Part shown: piece after piece, positions 4,697 through 12,994 of the stretch | Position numbering within the stretch: position 1 is the stretch's first letter | Layout: every line of letters begins with the position of its first letter | Assembly: GCF_015689175.1 (NCBI RefSeq) | Contig: NZ_CP065047.1 | Location: forward strand, 4,216,001-4,280,000 | DNA: 64,000 bases | Origin: Mycobacterium kubicae | Lineage (GTDB): Bacteria; Actinomycetota; Actinomycetes; Mycobacteriales; Mycobacteriaceae | Direction of reading: 5' to 3' | The notes under the pieces: generated by a model | What the model was told of the DNA's origin: nothing | What the model saw: only the letters and a program-made list of their open reading frames with translations | Database searches by the model: none | Program-made: the position numbers and the translations under genes

Positions 4697-4722
4697 TGAG
4701 ACATGTCAGTGACATTGTCTCA
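4697..4722. promoter_or_regulatory. Palindromic operator over the cyp130 start codon
   Basis: The perfect outer arms TGAGACA (4697-4703) and TGTCTCA (4716-4722) enclose an inner inverted repeat TGTCA/TGACA (4704-4714). The palindrome covers the predicted transcription start and first codons of cyp130, the position expected for a repressor site. The TetR encoded immediately downstream is the obvious candidate ligand. Confidence 0.6.
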
Positions 4723-5938
4723 GCCGGTCGAATTCCAACTCGCCACCGCCGAGACGTGGCCCAACCCGTGGCCGATGTACCGGGCGCTGCGGGACCACGA
4801 CCCGGTGCACCATGTCGTGCCGCCGGGCCGTCCCGACCAGGACTACTACGTGCTGTCTCGGCATGCCGACATCTGGGCCGCAGCGCGTGACCACGAGACG
4901 TTCTCCTCCGCCCAGGGCCTGACGGTCAACTACGGCGACCTGGAAATGATCGGCCTGCAAGACAATCCGCCGATGGTGATGCAGGACCCGCCAGTGCACA
5001 CCGAGTTCCGCAAGCTGGTGGCCCGCGGATTCACCCCCCGCCAGGTCGAAGCGGTCGAGCCCAAGGTGCGGGCTTTCGTCGTCGACCGACTGGAAAGGCT
5101 GCGCGCCAACGGCGGCGGCGACATCGTCACCGAGTTGTTCAAACCCCTGCCGTCGATGGTGGTCGCGCACTATCTCGGTGTCCCCGAGGAAGACCGTGCC
5201 CAGTTCGACGGGTGGACCGACGCGATCGTGGCGGCCAACACCGGCGACGGCGGCATCGCGGGCGCGCTGGAAACCGTCGGGGACGCGGTCGGATCGATGA
5301 TGGGCTACTTCACCAGCCTGATCGAGCGCCGGCGCAGCGAACCCGAAGACGACACCATCTCCCATCTGGTCGCCGCCGGCGTCGGCGTCGACGGTGACAT
5401 CGCCGGAACACTGTCAGTGCTGGCGTTCACCTTCACCATGGTCACCGGCGGCAACGACACCACCACCGGCATGCTCGGCGGCTCCATGCCGTTGCTGCAC
5501 CAGCGCCCCGATCAGCGCCGGCTCCTGGCCGACGACCCGGGATTGATCCGGGACGCGGTCGACGAACTGTTGCGGCTCACCTCGCCGGTGCAAGGCCTGG
5601 CCCGCACCACCACCCGCGACGTGACGATCGGCGACACCACCATTCCGGCCGGGCGCAAGGTGCTGCTGCTGTATGGATCGGCCAACCGCGACGAACGCCA
5701 ATACGGCTCGGACGCAGCCGAACTGAATGTGACCCGCCGCCCCCGCAACATCTTGACCTTCAGCCACGGCGCGCACCACTGCCTGGGCGCGGCGGCCGCG
5801 CGAATGCAGTCCCGCGTGGCATTGACCGAGTTGTTCGCCCGCTGCCCCGACTTCGAGATCGACGAGGCCGGCATCGTCTGGTCGGGCGGCAGCTACGTCC
5901 GGCGCCCGTTGTCGGTGCCGTTCCGCGTGAAATCCTGA
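4703..5938 (+). CDS. cyp130: Cytochrome P450 CYP130
   Basis: The 411-residue soluble P450 matches M. tuberculosis CYP130 (Rv1256c). The I-helix oxygen-activation region is TMVTGGNDTTTG, the K-helix ExxR is in DELLRLTSP, and the heme-ligand loop is FSHGAHHCLG, whose Cys binds the iron. It needs separate ferredoxin and reductase partners, and none is encoded nearby. CYP130 has been reported to bind azoles and to demethylate dextromethorphan in vitro; the physiological substrate is not established. The ATG at 4703 coincides with the predicted transcription start. The stop overlaps the next start by one base (TGATG), so the P450 and the regulator are co-translated. Confidence 0.95.
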   Translation: MSVTLSQPVEFQLATAETWPNPWPMYRALRDHDPVHHVVPPGRPDQDYYVLSRHADIWAAARDHETFSSAQGLTVNYGDLEMIGLQDNPPMVMQDPPVHTEFRKLVARGFTPRQVEAVEPKVRAFVVDRLERLRANGGGDIVTELFKPLPSMVVAHYLGVPEEDRAQFDGWTDAIVAANTGDGGIAGALETVGDAVGSMMGYFTSLIERRRSEPEDDTISHLVAAGVGVDGDIAGTLSVLAFTFTMVTGGNDTTTGMLGGSMPLLHQRPDQRRLLADDPGLIRDAVDELLRLTSPVQGLARTTTRDVTIGDTTIPAGRKVLLLYGSANRDERQYGSDAAELNVTRRPRNILTFSHGAHHCLGAAAARMQSRVALTELFARCPDFEIDEAGIVWSGGSYVRRPLSVPFRVKS

Positions 5939-6516
5939 TGGCCGGCGACTGGCTGGGCGCGCGGCGCATCGAGGTAGCCGCCGACCGGATCCTCGACGCC
6001 GCCGAACGGCTCTACACCGAGCGCGACCCGGCTTCCATCGGCATGAACGAGATCGCCAGCGCCGCAGGGTGTTCCCGGGCGACGCTGTACCGCTACTTCG
6101 AGAATCGCGAGGCGCTGCGCACCGCCTACGTGCACCGCGAGACCTACCGGCTCAGCGACGCCCTCAAGCAGCAAGTGTCGGGCGTCAGCGATCCGCGGGA
6201 GCGCCTCATCCTCAGCATCACCACCACGCTGCGGATCGTCCGGCAGACGCCCGCCTTGGCGTCGTGGTTCGACACCACCCGACCCCCCATCGGTGGCCAG
6301 ATGGCCGGGCAGTCCGAAGTGATCGCCGCGTTGGCCGCCGCCTTCCTGGACTCGCTGGGCTCCGACGATCCGAACACCGTCGAGCGCCGGGCGCGGTGGG
6401 TGGTGCGAATCATCGCGTCGCTGTTGATGTTTCCGGGTCAGGATGAAGCCGACGAGCGCGCGATGCTCGAGGAGTTCGTCGTTCCCATCGTGACTCCTGC
6501 CGCGGCTCGCCGGTAG
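5938..6516 (+). CDS. TetR-family regulator next to cyp130
   Basis: The 192-residue homologue of Rv1255c has a typical N-terminal TetR DNA-binding domain: NEIASAAGCSRATLYRYFENREAL (read as MNEIASAAG-CSRATLYRYF, about residues 36-58) is the helix-turn-helix. The remainder is a helical ligand-binding domain. Its start overlaps the cyp130 stop, and the palindrome over the cyp130 start is the likely operator, so autoregulation of a two-gene operon is inferred. The last 79 bp overlap, tail to tail, the convergent N-hydroxylase gene. Confidence 0.9.
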   Translation: MAGDWLGARRIEVAADRILDAAERLYTERDPASIGMNEIASAAGCSRATLYRYFENREALRTAYVHRETYRLSDALKQQVSGVSDPRERLILSITTTLRIVRQTPALASWFDTTRPPIGGQMAGQSEVIAALAAAFLDSLGSDDPNTVERRARWVVRIIASLLMFPGQDEADERAMLEEFVVPIVTPAAARR

Positions 6517-7748
6517 GCGGACGACGGTACCGCGGCGGCCGCGGCGATCTCCCCCGCGCGCACCGCCACGTTGGACAGCAACGAGGACGCCAGCCCGTGT
6601 GTGTGTTCGACCGCGCCGTTGAGATAGATGTCTCCGGGTGCCTGCGGCTTGGCGACCAACCGGTAATCCCGCGTGACGGCGGGTCGCCCGTCGCCGCCGA
6701 ACTCGTAGTAGTCGGCCAGGTCGCCGAGGAAGTGCCGAACGTCCAGCGGTGCGTAGCCCGTCGCGTACACCACCGCATCGCAGTGCAGAGTGCTGCGCGA
6801 CTGATCGATCAGGTGGGCGACCGTCAGGCGCACCCCGTCGTTATCTTCTTCGGCCGCAACGACTTCGGAGGCGTTGTGCATGAACAGCCGCCGCTGCCCG
6901 GACACGCGTTCGGCATACTCGCGCGCATGCAGGTCGTCGATCAGGTGCGCATCGACCGCCGAGTAGTTGGTTGACCGGTGGTAGTCCAGCAGCCGCTGGC
7001 GCAGCGGCGCGTCAGCGGTGTAGAAGTCGTCCACCGCCGCCGGGTCGAAAATCCGGTTTGCATAAGGGCTGTCGTCGGCCACGCTGTATCCGTACCGGGC
7101 ATACACCGCATGCACCTCGGCGTGCGGATAAGTGCGGTGCAGATAAGCGGCCACTTCCGCCGCGCTTTGACCGGCCCCGACCACCGCGAACCGTTGTGGG
7201 GACGCAGGGTTGAGCGCGGCGAGGCTGCCCAGTAGCGAGCAGCTGTGCCACTGACGGGTGGTTTCGGTCACGCCGTCGGGCAGCACGCAGTGCAGGCCGG
7301 TACCCAACACGATTGCCGCCGCTCGGATTTCGGGCCCGGGTTCGGTGTGGACCACGAACCCCTGGTCGTCGGAGGAGATCTGGACGACACGGCGGCCGTA
7401 GCGAACGTCGGCGGCGACTCGCTTGGCGGCCCACTCGAGGTAGTCGTGAAACTCCACCCTGCTGGGAAACAGCGTGTGGCGACCGATGAACTCGACCAGC
7501 CGCCCCCGTTCGCTGAGATAGTTGACAAACGTGAAGTCGCTGTTGGCGTTTCGCAACGTCACCAGGTCTTTGAGGAAGGGCACCTGCATGCGGGCGCCCG
7601 GCAACAGCATTCCCCGGTGCCAGCCGAACTCCGATTGGGCTTCGACGAAGACGGCCGGCGCGTCCTGTTCGGCCAGCGCAATCGCCAGCGCGAGGTTGGA
7701 GGGCCCAAACCCGATACCGAGCAGGTCGGTGTGTTCAGGAAGTGACAT
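6438..7748 (-). CDS. FAD/NADPH-dependent L-lysine N6- or L-ornithine N5-monooxygenase
   Basis: This belongs to the K_oxygenase family (PF13434; MbtG, IucD, SidA, PvdA), which N-hydroxylates the side-chain amine of lysine or ornithine to make hydroxamate siderophores. FAD-binding LLGIGFGPSNLALA is at residues 9-22, the family block MQVPFLKDLVTLRNANS at about 54-70, NADPH-binding VVGAGQSAAE at 189-198, and ATGY at 329-332. An ATG at 7748 is preferred to an in-frame GTG at 7754; either way the gene overlaps the end of the upstream acyltransferase by 14-20 bp, so they are co-translated. About 35 low-complexity residues extend past the usual family end and overlap the convergent tetR. No siderophore synthetase is nearby. 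It is absent from the M. tuberculosis Rv1254-Rv1255c junction. Confidence 0.85.
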   Translation of the reverse strand: MSLPEHTDLLGIGFGPSNLALAIALAEQDAPAVFVEAQSEFGWHRGMLLPGARMQVPFLKDLVTLRNANSDFTFVNYLSERGRLVEFIGRHTLFPSRVEFHDYLEWAAKRVAADVRYGRRVVQISSDDQGFVVHTEPGPEIRAAAIVLGTGLHCVLPDGVTETTRQWHSCSLLGSLAALNPASPQRFAVVGAGQSAAEVAAYLHRTYPHAEVHAVYARYGYSVADDSPYANRIFDPAAVDDFYTADAPLRQRLLDYHRSTNYSAVDAHLIDDLHAREYAERVSGQRRLFMHNASEVVAAEEDNDGVRLTVAHLIDQSRSTLHCDAVVYATGYAPLDVRHFLGDLADYYEFGGDGRPAVTRDYRLVAKPQAPGDIYLNGAVEHTHGLASSLLSNVAVRAGEIAAAAAVPSSAYRRAAAGVTMGTTNSSSIARSSASS

Positions 7749-8571
7749 AAGCACGCGTCAACCGCCCGAGATAGCCCTCGCGCACCATGGTTCGGTTAAT
7801 CAACACGACGAAGTCGGCCATGTCGAAGTCGGGATCGTAGGAGGGTTCGCCACAGATCACCCCGCCGATCCACAGCGATCCCTGCACCATCGGCGGGATG
7901 CGTATCCGACCGGGGTCGGGCAACTCCGTCAGGCTCAACCCGTTGACCCGCACCGGGTTACGGGGCACCACCCGGTATTGCGGTGGCGCAGCGTGCGCAC
8001 CGAAGGCCACGTCGAGAACCCGTCGCACCAGGGCTCCCCGGAATTCGCCCGCTTCCATCCGCACCGACAGGCACCCGGCTCCCCATTCGTAGCCCGTCAA
8101 TTCCTGATAGCGAAGAATGCCCGCCCAGAGCAGGCCCATCACCGCGCCATTGCGGTGTTCGGGGTGCACGCTGGCCCGTCCCAGCTCAACCAGGCTGGGC
8201 CGCAACTCGTTCAAGCCGCCGATGTCGAAGATGGTGTCGGCGAATATCCCGCCGGCGGCGCGAGCACCTTCGGGTGGTAGCAGCCGGTAGCAACCGACGA
8301 TCTGTCCGCTGGTCTCGTCGCGGGCCAGCAGGTGCTCGCTGTGCGGGTCGAACTGGTCGACGTCGATCATCTGCCCGGTCAGCGGCCCGCGGATCGCTTG
8401 TGGCAGCGCTGCTCCCATCTCCTCGGCGAAAGTCAGGTAACGCAACCGCTGAGCAGCCTCGATATCTGCCGGGTCGGTGGAGATCAGGACGCTATAACGG
8501 CCGGTGTCGGTCGCGGGAATCAGCATCGCATCGCCAAGCATGGTATTGCCGAGGTTACCCAGCGCCGACAT
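7735..8571 (-). CDS. OlsB-like GNAT N-acyltransferase (PF13444)
   Basis: The 278-residue protein has the hallmarks of the OlsB/FeeM branch of GNAT enzymes, which move a fatty acyl group from acyl-ACP or acyl-CoA to an amino group, for example that of ornithine to form lyso-ornithine lipid. Visible blocks are LRYLTFAEEMG (about 43-53), DVDQFDPHSEHLLARD (70-85), VELGRASVHPEHRNG (128-142) and GEPSYDPDFDMADF near 241-254. The ATG at 8571 lies 14 bp after the exporter stop; the open frame continues upstream inside the exporter gene but that is shadow. It sits between an exporter and an N-hydroxylase. Acyl donor and acceptor are not known; an acyl-lysine or acyl-ornithine product is an inference. 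Confidence 0.75.
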   Translation of the reverse strand: MSALGNLGNTMLGDAMLIPATDTGRYSVLISTDPADIEAAQRLRYLTFAEEMGAALPQAIRGPLTGQMIDVDQFDPHSEHLLARDETSGQIVGCYRLLPPEGARAAGGIFADTIFDIGGLNELRPSLVELGRASVHPEHRNGAVMGLLWAGILRYQELTGYEWGAGCLSVRMEAGEFRGALVRRVLDVAFGAHAAPPQYRVVPRNPVRVNGLSLTELPDPGRIRIPPMVQGSLWIGGVICGEPSYDPDFDMADFVVLINRTMVREGYLGRLTRAYVTS

Positions 8572-8585
8572 CAGCAAATCCGATT

Positions 8586-10139
8586 TCAGGCCTCGGGCGA
8601 GGTGCGCCTGGCTCCGACCGCGATCAACACCGCCGTACCCACCGCGGCGACGCTGGCGGCGATCGCCGCTGCCAGCAGCGCGGCCTGCATACCGTCGGCG
8701 CTGGCTTGACGGGCCACCCGGGCAATCGCCGGCAGCGCGGGCCGCAAATCCCCGGGCAGGAACTCGAGGACCCGTAACCCCGCACCGGCGGAGAGCCGGT
8801 CGATGAGTTGCTGTATCGGTCGTGGGTCGCCACCAGGCAGGGCGGCCAACCCGTGGGCGGCGCTGCCGGCCGCGTGTCGGCTGAACAGTGCGCCAAGGCC
8901 GGCGACACCGGCCAGGATGCCGACCTGACGAGCTGTGCTCACCGCGCCCGTCGCCATCCCGGCGTCGGTGACCGGAACGAACTGCAGGGCAACATCGGAC
9001 GTCAGCGCGAACAGGCCGCCCAACCCCAGGCCCGCTACCACGCAGCCACCGATGAAGTGCGTCCAACCGGTGTGCTCGGTGACACCGGTCAGCAGCCACA
9101 GCCCGGCTGCGATCAGACCGACCCCACCGGGAATCGACATCCACGCCGGGAAGTAACGCGACCCGATCATGGCCAACGGGGCGCCGAGCACGCACGCGAC
9201 GGTCAACGGCAACGCCCGCACCCCGGACTGGAATGGGCTATATCCCAGCGTGTTCATGAAGTACAGCGCCAGGTAGTTGGTGGAGGCGATCAACGTCCCC
9301 GCGGCCGCGAACGCCGCCAGCGACACTCCGGCGAACCCCGGTCTGCGCACCACCCGCAGGTCGAGCATGGGCGCCTCGACCCGCGATTCCCACCACACGA
9401 ACAGCACCGCGGCCGCGACACAGAACGCGCTGAGCGTCAGAATCGTCGTGCTGGTCCACCCCAGATGGTTGCCTTCGATGAGGACGAACACACCTGCGAA
9501 CAGCGTGGCCGACAATACGGCGGTGCCGACCAGGTCGAGCGGGCGGTTCTGCGGCGCATGCGATTCGGTGACGAACCCCACGACGATGGCCAGGGCAGCG
9601 ATCCCGGTCGGCACGTTGATCAAGAAGATGGACTCCCAGCCGAAGGCGCCGACCAGGGCACCGCCGAGCAGCGGTCCGACGGCGGCGCCGGCTCCCATGA
9701 CCGCGCCGTAGATCGCAATCGCGACTCCCCTGCTGCGCTGCTCGGGGAACGCCGCGGCCACCATGGGCAGCGATACGCCCAGCAAGATGGAGCCGCCAGC
9801 ACCTTGCAGGGCCCGCGACGCGTTCAGCATTTCGATGCTGCCGGCCAGCGCGCAGCCCGCCGAGGCCAAGGTGAAGACGGTGATCCCGATCAGGTACAGA
9901 CGCCGCCGGCCGAGTCGGTCGCCCAACGTCGCGGCGGTCAGCAACAGCGCCGCCATAGGCAGCGCGTACGCGTCGACCACCCATTGCAGCCCGCTGAGTT
10001 CGGCGTCCAGTGAGGCCTGGATATTGGCCAGCGCGGCCGAGACGATCGTCATGTCCAGCAGCAACATGAACACCGCCAGGCATACCGCGGTCAGCGTCAG
10101 GCGCGGATGTAGCTGACCGGCCCGAGTCGTGGAGATCAC
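8586..10139 (-). CDS. DHA2-family (EmrB/QacA) 14-helix MFS exporter
   Basis: The 517-residue integral membrane protein has about 14 hydrophobic segments and the DHA2 signatures DMTIVSAALANIQ in helix 1, GDRLGRRRLYL after helix 2 (motif A) and a G/P-rich motif C region (GAVMGAGAAVGPLLGG). The GTG start at 10139 abuts the acyltransferase stop with no gap, so it is read from the same message. DHA2 pumps export drugs, dyes or secondary metabolites by proton antiport. Its place directly upstream of the OlsB-like enzyme and N-hydroxylase suggests it exports their product, but this is inference. Confidence 0.88.
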   Translation of the reverse strand: MISTTRAGQLHPRLTLTAVCLAVFMLLLDMTIVSAALANIQASLDAELSGLQWVVDAYALPMAALLLTAATLGDRLGRRRLYLIGITVFTLASAGCALAGSIEMLNASRALQGAGGSILLGVSLPMVAAAFPEQRSRGVAIAIYGAVMGAGAAVGPLLGGALVGAFGWESIFLINVPTGIAALAIVVGFVTESHAPQNRPLDLVGTAVLSATLFAGVFVLIEGNHLGWTSTTILTLSAFCVAAAVLFVWWESRVEAPMLDLRVVRRPGFAGVSLAAFAAAGTLIASTNYLALYFMNTLGYSPFQSGVRALPLTVACVLGAPLAMIGSRYFPAWMSIPGGVGLIAAGLWLLTGVTEHTGWTHFIGGCVVAGLGLGGLFALTSDVALQFVPVTDAGMATGAVSTARQVGILAGVAGLGALFSRHAAGSAAHGLAALPGGDPRPIQQLIDRLSAGAGLRVLEFLPGDLRPALPAIARVARQASADGMQAALLAAAIAASVAAVGTAVLIAVGARRTSPEA

Positions 10140-11294
10140 CTAGTCGGTCCGGACCCGGGTGAAGCGGTGCAACAACCAGGCCAGGGGAATGGTGATCACC
10201 ACGGTGGCGATGAACAGGTACAGCATGGGGCCGGTGTACACGTGCGCCCGGACCACGTAAACCATGGCGAACTCCATCGTCACCAGATGGATCAGGAAGA
10301 TCTCGTAGGAGATCTCACCCAGCCACACCATGGGCCGACTGGCCAGCGCCCGCGCATACCACCCTTGGGGCGTGGTGCCGCCGTCCAAGGCCAGCGGTGC
10401 CACCGCCAGGGTGGCGATCACGGCATAGAAGCAGGTCTTGACCAGCGCTTCCATCATGGACGCCGGCGACGTGGTGGGCGCCCCGGCTATCGGGGTGGCG
10501 GCGATGAAGTAGCTGATCACCGCCAGCGGTATGGCCACGAACGCATAGCAGCGCACTCCCATCGCCTGCAGCACGGTCAGCAGCATGCCGCCGAGAAACC
10601 AGGCCAGATAGGTCGGCAGCCACAGCCGCGCGCCGTCGGGGAACAGATGGTCGGTGTGCACCAGGACCAACCAGCCCGGGCTGATCAGCGTCATCGCGGC
10701 CAGCGCAGCGACCACCAACCGCGGCTGCCATTGCCGCCGGGACAGCAACACCAGCAGCAGGTAGGCCAACAACGGCAGGATCACATAGAACGAGGCCTCC
10801 ACCGCCAGGCTCCACATCTGGGTGAGGCCTTGGTGCAGATATTTCCCGAGATAGCCGTCGGTGTAGATCTGCGTCAGGGTCAGGTTGCGAACCAGCCCCA
10901 ACCAGCTGTGGCCGGGATTGGGGCCAGCTTCGCGGAAGTGGTACAGCACGTAGGCGAACAGCACGGTGACGACATAGGCGGGCATGATGCGCCGAACCCG
11001 GTGCCGCGCATAGCGACTCAACGACGGCGGCGGCGCCCCGGTGGCGGCCGATTTCACCCAGGGGCGGAAGAGCAGGAATCCGGACAGGACGAAGAAGATC
11101 GGCACACCGATCTCCATCCGGGCGCCCACCAGTCCCCAGTAGCCGTGGGTGTACTTGCCGGTGGTGTAGGCGGCATGGGTGCCGACCACCAGCAGGGCGG
11201 CCACGGCGCGAACACCGGTCAGTGCGGCGACCCGATCCACGTGGGAGGTCTGTTCGAGTCCCCCTTGGGCGTCCTGTTCCTCCGACAGCGTCAT
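10140..11294 (-). CDS. Acyltransferase family 3 membrane protein (Rv1254-like)
   Basis: The 384-residue protein (PF01757) has about ten membrane segments. Near the N-terminus it has LTGVRAVAALLVVGTHAAY with the conserved membrane-embedded His, and EIGVPIFFVLSGFLLFRPW, the FFxLSGF block of the family. Members O-acylate sugars, peptidoglycan or lipid-linked glycans in or across the membrane. It follows deaD with an ATGA overlap, as Rv1254 follows Rv1253. Here it is also fused at zero distance to the extra exporter gene. The substrate is unknown; it could acylate the product of the downstream module, but its conservation in species without that module argues for an independent role. Confidence 0.88.
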   Translation of the reverse strand: MTLSEEQDAQGGLEQTSHVDRVAALTGVRAVAALLVVGTHAAYTTGKYTHGYWGLVGARMEIGVPIFFVLSGFLLFRPWVKSAATGAPPPSLSRYARHRVRRIMPAYVVTVLFAYVLYHFREAGPNPGHSWLGLVRNLTLTQIYTDGYLGKYLHQGLTQMWSLAVEASFYVILPLLAYLLLVLLSRRQWQPRLVVAALAAMTLISPGWLVLVHTDHLFPDGARLWLPTYLAWFLGGMLLTVLQAMGVRCYAFVAIPLAVISYFIAATPIAGAPTTSPASMMEALVKTCFYAVIATLAVAPLALDGGTTPQGWYARALASRPMVWLGEISYEIFLIHLVTMEFAMVYVVRAHVYTGPMLYLFIATVVITIPLAWLLHRFTRVRTD

Positions 11295-12994
11295 CCGGCG
11301 TGTTTCCGGCGGGACTTGCCGCTGTCGCGGCCACGGGTCTTGTCGGATCTGCGGTCTAGTTGCAGATCGATCAGCACACCCGAGATTCGGGTGTGTTCAA
11401 GCTTTTTCATGGTTGCACGGGGAAGCTTGGCCGGCAGTTCGACCAGCGAGAAGTCCGGCCCGATGGTGATGTGACCGAAGTCGCTGCGGTGCAGTCCGCC
11501 CTCGTTGGCGATGGCGCCGACGATGGCGCCGGGCCCGATCTTGTGCCGTTTCCCGACGGCGATCCGATAGGTGCTGAGATCGGTTCTGGTCCTTGGCTTG
11601 TCGTGACGGTCCCGACGATCCTCGCGGCTGCGTTCCGCGCGCCGCTCCGGCGGCGGTTCGGGCGAAAGGAGAAACGCCTCGCCGTCGCGGGACTGCAGCG
11701 CCAGCGCCGCGGCGATATCGGCCAACGGCACATCGTGTTCGCGTTCGTAGTCTTGCACCAGCTTGCGGAAAAGATCGATACCCGGTCGGCCCAGCGCGTC
11801 GGTGATGGAGTCGGCGAACTTGGCGACCCGCTGCGCGTTGACGTCTTCGACGGTAGGCAGTTCGGTCTCGGTGAGGGTCTGCCGGGTGGCCTTTTCGATC
11901 GCCTTGAGCAGGTGGCGTTCGCGCGGTGAGACGAACAACAACGCCGTGCCCGATCGCCCGGCCCGGCCGGTGCGCCCGATGCGGTGCACGTAGGACTCGG
12001 TGTCGTGCGGGATGTCGTAGTTGAGCACATGCGAGATGCGTTCGACGTCGAGTCCTCGGGCGGCGACATCGGTGGCGACCAGGATGTCGATGCCTTTGGC
12101 GCCGCCGTCGCGCAGCGCGGTGATGGTCCGCTCCCGCTGCGCCTGTGGAATGTCACCGTTGATGGCTGCGGCGGAAAACCCTCGGGCGCGCAGTCTTTCG
12201 GCGACTTCCTCGGTGGCCTGTTTGGTCCGCACGAAGATGATCATCGCCTCGAACGGTTCGGTTTCCAGTATCCGGGTGAGCGCGTCCATCTTGCGGGGAC
12301 CCGCGACTTGGATGTAGCGCTGTGAAATGTTGTCCGCGGTCGCGGTTTTCGCTTTGGAGGTGACCTCGAGCGGATCGTGCAGATACTTGGTGGTCAGCTT
12401 GCGGATGGCCGCGGGCATGGTCGCCGAGAACAGCGCCACCTGTTTGTATTCCGGGGTGTCGGCCAGGATCCGCTCGACGTCTTCGGCGAAGCCCATGGTG
12501 AGCATTTCGTCGGCCTCGTCGAGCACGAGATAGTCGACTCGCGACAGGTCCAGCGTTCCGCGTTCGAGGTGGTCGATGACGCGCCCGGGCGTCCCGACCA
12601 CCACCTGGGCGCCGCGGCGCAGTCCGGCCAGTTGCACGGCGTACGACGATCCGCCGTAGATCGGCAGCACGTTGAGCTGGCGCAGGTGGGCCCCATAGCG
12701 GCTGAACGCCTCGGCGACCTGCAATGCCAGCTCCCGGGTGGGCGCCAGGATCAGGGCCTGGGTCGCCTTGCTCGAGGTGTCGAGCTTGGACAGGATCGGG
12801 ATCGCGAACGCCGCCGTCTTGCCGGTTCCGGTCTGGGCCAGCCCGACCACGTCGGTGCCTGCCATCAGCGCCGGGATGGTGGCGGCTTGGATACCCGTCG
12901 GCGATTCGTAGCCGACGTCGCCGATCGCCTGCAGAACCTTCGGATGAATCTGCAGGTCGGCGAAGGTGGTAGGGGGTGTCTCGGGATGGGCCAT
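11291..12994 (-). CDS. deaD: DEAD-box ATP-dependent RNA helicase DeaD/CsdA
   Basis: This 567-residue SF2 helicase unwinds RNA duplexes in ribosome assembly and RNA decay, especially in the cold. The motifs in order are the Q motif region (PTGIQAATIPALMAG), motif I AQTGTGKT, PTRELA, TPGR, motif II DEADEM, motif III SAT, and motif VI HRIGRTGRAG. After a charged Arg-rich linker (about 435-465) comes a DbpA/CsdA RNA-binding domain (RIAVGKRHKIGPGAIVGAI) and a basic tail. The ATG at 12994 starts a standard N-terminus. The stop overlaps the acyltransferase start, making deaD the first gene of the five-gene minus-strand operon. Confidence 0.95.
   Translation of the reverse strand: MAHPETPPTTFADLQIHPKVLQAIGDVGYESPTGIQAATIPALMAGTDVVGLAQTGTGKTAAFAIPILSKLDTSSKATQALILAPTRELALQVAEAFSRYGAHLRQLNVLPIYGGSSYAVQLAGLRRGAQVVVGTPGRVIDHLERGTLDLSRVDYLVLDEADEMLTMGFAEDVERILADTPEYKQVALFSATMPAAIRKLTTKYLHDPLEVTSKAKTATADNISQRYIQVAGPRKMDALTRILETEPFEAMIIFVRTKQATEEVAERLRARGFSAAAINGDIPQAQRERTITALRDGGAKGIDILVATDVAARGLDVERISHVLNYDIPHDTESYVHRIGRTGRAGRSGTALLFVSPRERHLLKAIEKATRQTLTETELPTVEDVNAQRVAKFADSITDALGRPGIDLFRKLVQDYEREHDVPLADIAAALALQSRDGEAFLLSPEPPPERRAERSREDRRDRHDKPRTRTDLSTYRIAVGKRHKIGPGAIVGAIANEGGLHRSDFGHITIGPDFSLVELPAKLPRATMKKLEHTRISGVLIDLQLDRRSDKTRGRDSGKSRRKHAG

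Follow-up and report, generated by a model that had tools for sequence, protein, structure and literature searches.

A putative acyl-hydroxyornithine synthesis and export module in Mycobacterium kubicae and related mycobacteria

In a 64-kb stretch of the 6.02-Mb genome of Mycobacterium kubicae (contig NZ_CP065047.1; hereafter, the window), the gene string headed by the RNA helicase gene deaD is extended by three tightly coupled genes, which encode a DHA2-type exporter of the major facilitator superfamily (MFS), a PF13444 N-acyltransferase of the GNAT type, and a flavin-dependent amino-acid N-hydroxylase. We propose, with a probability of roughly 45%, that this trio is a self-contained module for making and exporting an acyl-hydroxyornithine. 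A hydroxylase, an acyltransferase, and an exporter are held together in one unit, as expected of a hydroxamate siderophore pathway. The initial annotation had read the trio in a similar way, and its core, i.e., a conserved unit of hydroxylase, acyl-amino-acid-synthase-type GNAT, and exporter, stands, while its suggestions of a second acyltransferase and of control by the iron regulator IdeR do not.

According to the proposed scheme, the flavin hydroxylase would oxidize the side-chain nitrogen of free L-ornithine to give N5-hydroxyornithine, the acyltransferase of the autoinducer-synthase fold would transfer a fatty acyl group from its carrier to hydroxyornithine, and the DHA2 pump would secrete the resulting acyl-hydroxyornithine. 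Acylation of the hydroxylated nitrogen would yield a lipid with a single hydroxamate, capable of iron binding, and acylation of the alpha nitrogen would yield a lyso-ornithine lipid whose hydroxylamine stays free. The substrate, the order of steps, the acyl chain, the acylation site, the export, and the metal binding are what we infer.

Gene organization and conservation of the module

The intergenic spacings reported initially were correct: 0 bp between the upstream membrane acyltransferase and the exporter, 14 bp between the exporter and the GNAT gene, and a 14-bp overlap of the latter with the hydroxylase gene (Table 1). The family assignments were borne out as well, namely, PF07690, PF13444 (102 bits), and PF13434 (325 bits). 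There is no synthetase gene within the three-gene module. At the 3' end of the module, the last 26 codons of the hydroxylase are antisense to the 3' end of the convergent TetR-family gene (window 6438-6516). The hydroxylases of most relatives at this junction are ~10–30 residues shorter, and the aligned hydroxylase relatives mostly end at approximately residue 405–425. The corresponding junction of M. tuberculosis, which we take to be Rv1253-Rv1254-Rv1255c-Rv1256c, presumably lacks the trio.

Table 1. Genes of the module and of its surroundings in the window.
Feature	Coordinates	Strand	Evidence
DHA2-type MFS exporter, 517 aa, GTG start, first gene of the trio	8586..10139	-	PF07690, TIGR00711
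PF13444 N-acyltransferase (GNAT), 278 aa, autoinducer-synthase/FeeM fold, OlsB-like paralogue	7735..8571	-	PF13444 and predicted fold
Flavin-dependent amino-acid N-hydroxylase, 436 aa, probably ornithine-type; C-terminal tail antisense into the TetR gene	6438..7748	-	PF13434
Membrane acyltransferase, Acyl_transf_3 (PF01757); same gene string, judged outside the module	10140..11294	-	profile match, context
DeaD RNA helicase, heads the gene string extended by the trio	11291..12994	-	profile match
TetR-family regulator, convergent, 79-bp overlap with the hydroxylase 3' end	5938..6516	+	profile match; link to the module unproven
CYP130 orthologue, convergent, conserved neighbour outside the module	4703..5938	+	789 bits to PDB 2uuq (presumably an M. 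tuberculosis chain)

Conservation of the three-gene neighbourhood across species had been set beforehand as a check, and the same order was found at 26 distinct loci including the window. The samples comprised 148 genomes of the genus, GTDB genomes (the best 80 of 442 hydroxylase relatives), and 200 genomes drawn from the order; three of the 28 fetched module records (L114, L117, and L126; L and G numbers denote our loci and genomes) were duplicate contigs and were dropped. Close relatives of the acyltransferase (60–82% identity) and of the hydroxylase (62–75%) occur in an identical set of 12 of the 148 genus genomes, the window's included, and the order exporter-acyltransferase-hydroxylase is kept in all 11 other members of this set. 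The same order was found in 17 of the best 80 (of 442) hydroxylase loci in named GTDB genomes, the carriers including M. asiaticum, M. alsense, M. interjectum, M. paraense, and M. terramassiliense, as well as Mycolicibacterium setense, M. houstonense, and one Mycobacteroides. The other 63 of these 80 loci have no related acyltransferase nearby, and four of them have an MFS relative of ~30% identity. The trio was not found outside the genus: among the 200 genomes of the order, acyltransferases of at least 60% identity are restricted to the window genome (G000) and G017, and the best matches outside the genus are ~50% identical.

At 21 of the 26 loci, the trio follows the deaD-side membrane acyltransferase, with the TetR and CYP130 genes beyond it where the contig extends far enough. 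At one of them (L077, genome G105), a DeaD gene could not be located in the region retrieved, and CYP130 is covered only at residues 11–225 in two pieces, which suggests a decayed gene there. The remaining five loci are of the Mycobacteroides type, and both deaD and the membrane acyltransferase are missing from the stretch retrieved; at the two of them that were annotated (L081 and L083), the trio follows an RDD-family gene that adjoins an apparent glutamine synthetase gene. Since the same order is kept both at the deaD junction and at an unrelated site, the trio forms a separate unit that depends neither on deaD nor on the membrane acyltransferase at 10140. Compared with the window exporter, those of most loci at the deaD junction are 80–84% identical, those of M. 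setense and M. houstonense 64%, and those of the Mycobacteroides-type loci 60–63%.

All three reading frames are open at 26/26 loci, and stops in the alignments are confined to residues 16–18 of the exporter query and to hydroxylase residues from 405 on. The 14-bp overlap of the acyltransferase and hydroxylase genes, which in the window is counted from the hydroxylase's ATG, recurs at 16/21 deaD-junction loci when the longest frame is taken. The ratio of nonsynonymous to synonymous differences (pN/pS) relative to the window, with 25 comparisons per gene, is 0.19–0.48 for the exporter, 0.17–0.40 for the acyltransferase, and 0.27–0.39 for the hydroxylase (residues up to 404), at high, uncorrected pS values of 0.42–0.71. 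The three genes are therefore intact and closely coupled, and purifying selection acts on them. At some loci, Gly/Ala-rich frames resembling the PE family separate the hydroxylase gene from the TetR gene (L078:10147-12756, L122:9291-14618, and L123:9548-10074); as judged by eye, they are whole or partial.

The N-hydroxylase

The hydroxylase matches PF13434 with 324.9 bits (cut-off 21.3) over model positions 2–338 of 339. The nearest solved chains by sequence are 9nns (413 bits) and KtzI (4tlx, 361 bits). Scores of 220–227 bits were obtained for chains named L-ornithine N5-monooxygenase and of 191 bits for the lysine enzyme 5cqf. Residues K60, N231, N261, and S392 align with K107, N293, N323, and S469 of SidA, which we take to be its ornithine contacts. 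Judging by these similarities, the module hydroxylase is probably of the ornithine type; the initial assignment to lysine/ornithine N-hydroxylases holds for the family and can be refined to an enzyme close to KtzI and not MbtG-like. As contacts of the SidA type hold free ornithine, hydroxylation before acylation is favoured.

All 26 hydroxylases of the module group in a single clade (SH-aLRT, i.e., Shimodaira–Hasegawa-like approximate likelihood ratio test, 98) in a tree built by a quick method from 64 of 97 rows, with L092, L114, L117, L126, and the rows beyond L160 left out. Hydroxylases 55–60% identical to that of the window occur in 15 other genomes of the genus sample, and the eight of them included in the tree all fall outside the module clade. 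At the one such locus read in detail (L084), the hydroxylase is surrounded by PanD-like, formyltransferase, and ABC transporter genes as judged by eye, and it is from these neighbours that we call the 55–60% loci exochelin-type. No PF13444 or DHA2 relative was found near the hydroxylase in the nine fetched exochelin-type loci. Two weak hydroxylase matches (G122 and G083; 37–38%) were placed in neither the close nor the exochelin-type class. Separately, hydroxylases in records titled Kitasatospora arboriphila are nearly identical to those of Williamsia muralis (L147/L148/L149 and L155/L157/L158), and the Kitasatospora assembly may be mislabelled.

The acyltransferase and the exporter

The best NCBIfam matches of the acyltransferase are OlsB models, and its scores fall far below their cut-offs (104.4 vs. 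350 and 92.8 vs. 320 bits). Its score against PF21926, the FeeM family, is 21.6 bits, under the gathering score of 27, and its predicted fold matches FeeM and acyl-homoserine lactone (AHL) synthases, i.e., it is an autoinducer-synthase GNAT fold. The term "OlsB-like" is hence justified by membership in PF13444 and by the best-matching models, but not by the model cut-offs; the protein has diverged from the OlsB-like protein of mycobacteria, of which it is a paralogue.

The latter, near-universal paralogue has a PlsC/OlsA-like neighbour at 43/43 loci, and neither a hydroxylase nor an exporter. All 24 new loci of the order-wide search, in and outside the genus, have a PlsC-like neighbour, and none has a hydroxylase. 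Searched at E 1e-5, the 29 records that cover the 26 distinct module loci showed no PlsC-like neighbour of the module acyltransferase. It is thus a re-partnered OlsB-like paralogue, with the hydroxylase and exporter replacing the PlsC/OlsA-like neighbour. The OlsB-like/PlsC-like pair itself (L101:7609-9344 and 42 other loci), which we take to be Rv3027c-Rv3026c, makes a good candidate for the synthesis of ornithine lipids in mycobacteria; in the window genome, it adjoins iscS-like and mnmA-like genes as judged by eye.

These relationships bear on a rather improbable alternative, in which the product is an alpha-N-acyl ornithine serving as an envelope lipid or as a secreted surfactant or signal, with the side-chain nitrogen oxidized to a hydroxylamine, oxime, or nitroso group and with no role in metal binding. 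OlsB is the nearest named family, alpha amines are what FeeM and AHL synthases, its relatives by fold, acylate, and the module lacks an IdeR box (see below). Lyso-ornithine lipid is, moreover, a reported surfactant (PMC12856293). At the same time, no second acyltransferase of the PlsC/OlsA type is present near the module. N-hydroxylases of this kind are also known chiefly from pathways to hydroxamates or N-N bonds, which weighs against this alternative.

The exporter scores 151 bits against PF07690 and 234.3 bits against TIGR00711 (cut-off 230.2), and its best NCBIfam matches are efflux models. DHA2 pumps are commonly multidrug exporters, and mixed-function operons are frequent, both of which would suit an arrangement where the three genes share a promoter and no pathway: the pump would export drugs or metabolites, the acyltransferase would make a second lyso-ornithine lipid, and the hydroxylase would act separately. 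We regard this as very unlikely, given that the trio order is kept in two unrelated contexts and that the close acyltransferase and the close hydroxylase are found in the same 12/148 genomes.

Relation to mycobactin and peptide synthetase genes

Approximately 100 kb from mbtI, the window genome carries MbtA-, MbtB/E/F-, MbtC/D-, MbtG-, MbtH-, MbtK-, and MbtT-like genes and a formyltransferase gene, several of these names being assigned by us from domains and gene order. The reported absence of a synthetase is thus right for the module but not for the genome, which has non-ribosomal peptide synthetase (NRPS) genes for mycobactin, and the proposed check for co-occurrence with mbtG and mbtK found MbtG-, MbtK-, and MbtA-like genes present along with them. 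The MbtK-like protein belongs to PF13523. The MbtG-like protein matches PDB 4d7e with 469 bits and is only 24% identical to the module hydroxylase, so the latter is no stray MbtG; nor is it the only MbtG of the genome, as an MbtG-like protein from a different subfamily is encoded in the mbt locus. With the window protein as query, no second copy of the hydroxylase was found in the genome at E 1e-5.

A salicylate synthase over the model cut-off is present in 12/12 module genomes vs. 63/136 others (naive Fisher p 3e-4, uncorrected for ancestry) and in 0/15 exochelin-type genomes. Given the mycobactin genes and the salicylate synthase in module genomes, the module is an addition to the mycobactin genes and not their replacement. 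The gap between mbtI and the NRPS genes is ~100 kb in the window genome (G000:C1:3667500-3691000 and 3792544-3793800) and ~10–25 kb in G108, G064, G023, G105, and G134.

The formyltransferase type of the mbt locus (at least 75% identity) occurs in 9/12 module genomes vs. 20/136 others (naive p 2e-5, uncorrected for ancestry; in G031, counted among the 20, it is a fragment). In the window genome and 29 fetched loci, its surroundings include an MbtE-like gene in 10 genomes, six with and four without the module, and an NRPS resembling that of G088 in seven, three with and four without it. Adenylation domains of MbtE, cut out by anchoring on YGPTE, were compared in ten genomes. One type is shared by G000, G064, G023, G105, G108, G088, and G050, which have the module, and by G029, which does not; the module-bearing G134 shares the other type with the module-less G073.

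These counts are relevant to an unlikely explanation in which N5-hydroxyornithine from the hydroxylase would go into an NRPS siderophore produced elsewhere in the genome, by a mycobactin-type or exochelin-like line with a formyltransferase, while the acyltransferase would complete this siderophore or the pump export it. The association of module genomes with salicylate synthase and with the mbt-locus formyltransferase favours it, as does the presence of a related formyltransferase in all 15 genomes with the nearest outside hydroxylases (55–60%). However, the association rests on naive counts that do not correct for ancestry, and there is a double dissociation, with the formyltransferase found without the module in 20 genomes and the module without the formyltransferase in three (G017, G134, and G050). 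Besides, the MbtE adenylation type does not follow the module, the surroundings of the formyltransferase vary, and the mbt locus has an MbtG-like gene of its own. The double dissociation and the adenylation types weaken this explanation.

In their own right, the formyltransferase and the MbtE adenylation types, which in most of the compared genomes are unlike that of G073 and G134, suggest formyl-capped variants of mycobactin. The formyltransferase stands next to an MbtE-like NRPS in 10 sample genomes (e.g., L113:6704-7642 and L113:1666-6669 in the mbt locus of G000). The formyltransferase type also lies beside a 4033-aa NRPS in the Mycobacteroides-type genome G088 (L242:780-12878), with relatives of this NRPS beside it in G132, G110, G102, and G143, all without the module, and in the module-bearing G147 and G092.

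Iron control and neighbouring genes

An IdeR box had been proposed as a check on the module. At up to five mismatches to the IdeR consensus, a threshold yielding one match per 192 kb of shuffled sequence, no such box was found in the window or before the module at the 26 loci. As a control, the same scan returned three intergenic sites in the mbt locus of the window genome and one further site, with five mismatches, before mbtI. Because no IdeR-like box precedes the module, its control by iron is unsupported.

At three of the 26 loci, an IdeR-like site was found after the hydroxylase and before a gene for a siderophore-interacting protein (SIP) (L128:9221, L129:9221, and L077:9794). Given their placement, we read these sites as belonging to the SIP gene and rejected them as control sites of the module. 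The ten top-scoring SIP loci without the trio (L224-L233) all have the order deaD, membrane acyltransferase, SIP, with a TetR gene nearby in nine, so that SIP is read as an ancestral neighbour whose adjacency says little about the module. The window genome has no close SIP copy, the best match (34%) being an IrtA-like frame. Hence, the module lies, now or formerly, beside an iron-uptake gene, and the site does not demonstrate control of the module by iron.

The membrane acyltransferase at 10140 had been suggested to add a second acyl chain. This idea was abandoned: the gene is present at 10/10 loci without the module and absent near it at 5/5 Mycobacteroides-type loci, and since each occurs without the other, it is not part of the module. 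The CYP130 gene, too, is present both with and without the trio; a P450 gene also adjoins the Mycobacteroides-type trio, but its product is only ~30% identical to CYP130. The TetR-family protein was rejected as a conserved regulator of the module, as the TetR protein of L081 matches another TetR protein of the window genome better than the one encoded next to the module.

Strength of the proposal and comparison with known systems

Several observations weigh against acyl-hydroxyornithine as the product. The chain nearest to the hydroxylase, 9nns, was deposited as L-lysine N6-monooxygenase MbtG, a lysine enzyme name. The characterised relatives of the acyltransferase fold all acylate alpha amines, which alone gives no hydroxamate. 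Iron control is unsupported, as described above, and the association of the module with mycobactin genes leaves room for a role in the supply of an NRPS siderophore. A more specific version of our proposal is put forward only tentatively, and we hold it to be doubtful: a pathway independent of both NRPS and IucA/IucC-type synthetases, in which a duplicated OlsB-like enzyme would acylate N5-hydroxyornithine and the exported one-amino-acid hydroxamate lipid would act beside mycobactin as a second, membrane-active metal chelator.

Known systems share parts of this arrangement. The nearest by enzyme family is OlsB/OlsA, to which the module is linked by PF13444, by the best-matching NCBIfam models, and by a paralogue that sits with a PlsC/OlsA-like gene. 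It differs in the sub-cut-off scores of the acyltransferase and in having an N-hydroxylase and a pump instead of an OlsA-like neighbour. MbtG and MbtK likewise combine a hydroxylase and a GNAT, presumably to place an acyl-hydroxamate on the lysine side chain of mycobactin; however, MbtG is of another subfamily (24% identity), MbtK-like proteins belong to PF13523, and both are encoded separately in the window genome. The exochelin-type loci hold the nearest non-module hydroxylase relatives in the genus sample (55–60%), whereas the module hydroxylase adjoins no formyltransferase, NRPS, or PanD-like gene, being flanked on one side by the exporter and GNAT genes and on the opposite side by genes for TetR, SIP, or other proteins.

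A similar logic is seen in the N-acyl amino acid pathways of M. tuberculosis for tyrazolones (tyzACB) and tryptazolones (trzAS, Rv1356c-Rv1355c), described in PMC12856293. In these small non-NRPS clusters, an amino-acid N-acyltransferase and a tailoring flavoenzyme yield an N-acyl amino acid derivative; the amino acids are aromatic, and the product is cyclised and desaturated by ThiF-like and oxidase domains (PMC12856293). In the module, by contrast, the tailoring enzyme would N-hydroxylate a basic amino acid, and the unit includes a pump. A precedent for a lipid-like chelator built on one amino acid is given by the lipothrenins of Streptomyces aureus, where a single amino acid is amide-linked to a C16 diacid, with a hydroxamate and siderophore activity (PMC10616846). 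Unlike the predicted product of the module, they contain threonine whose amide is N-hydroxylated, which is ascribed to a diiron N-oxygenase, and the available part of that paper names no flavin ornithine hydroxylase or GNAT (PMC10616846).

No description of the trio as a unit was found in searches of the open-licence literature. The acyl-hydroxyornithine synthesis and export unit is therefore possibly undescribed, while its kind, the non-NRPS biosynthesis of N-acyl amino acids, is already known. Iron acquisition in mycobacteria is thought to rely on mycobactins and exochelins, both of which are made by peptide synthetases. Non-NRPS N-acyl amino acid clusters have been shown to exist in M. tuberculosis, in which 75–90% of the detected lipid features match no entry of a mycobacterial database (PMC12856293). 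Against this background, the module points to one particular small molecule, the predicted mass of which can be tested. It also suggests a route by which a housekeeping OlsB-like gene, once duplicated and parted from its PlsC/OlsA-like partner, may have become the core of a pathway for a secreted metabolite.

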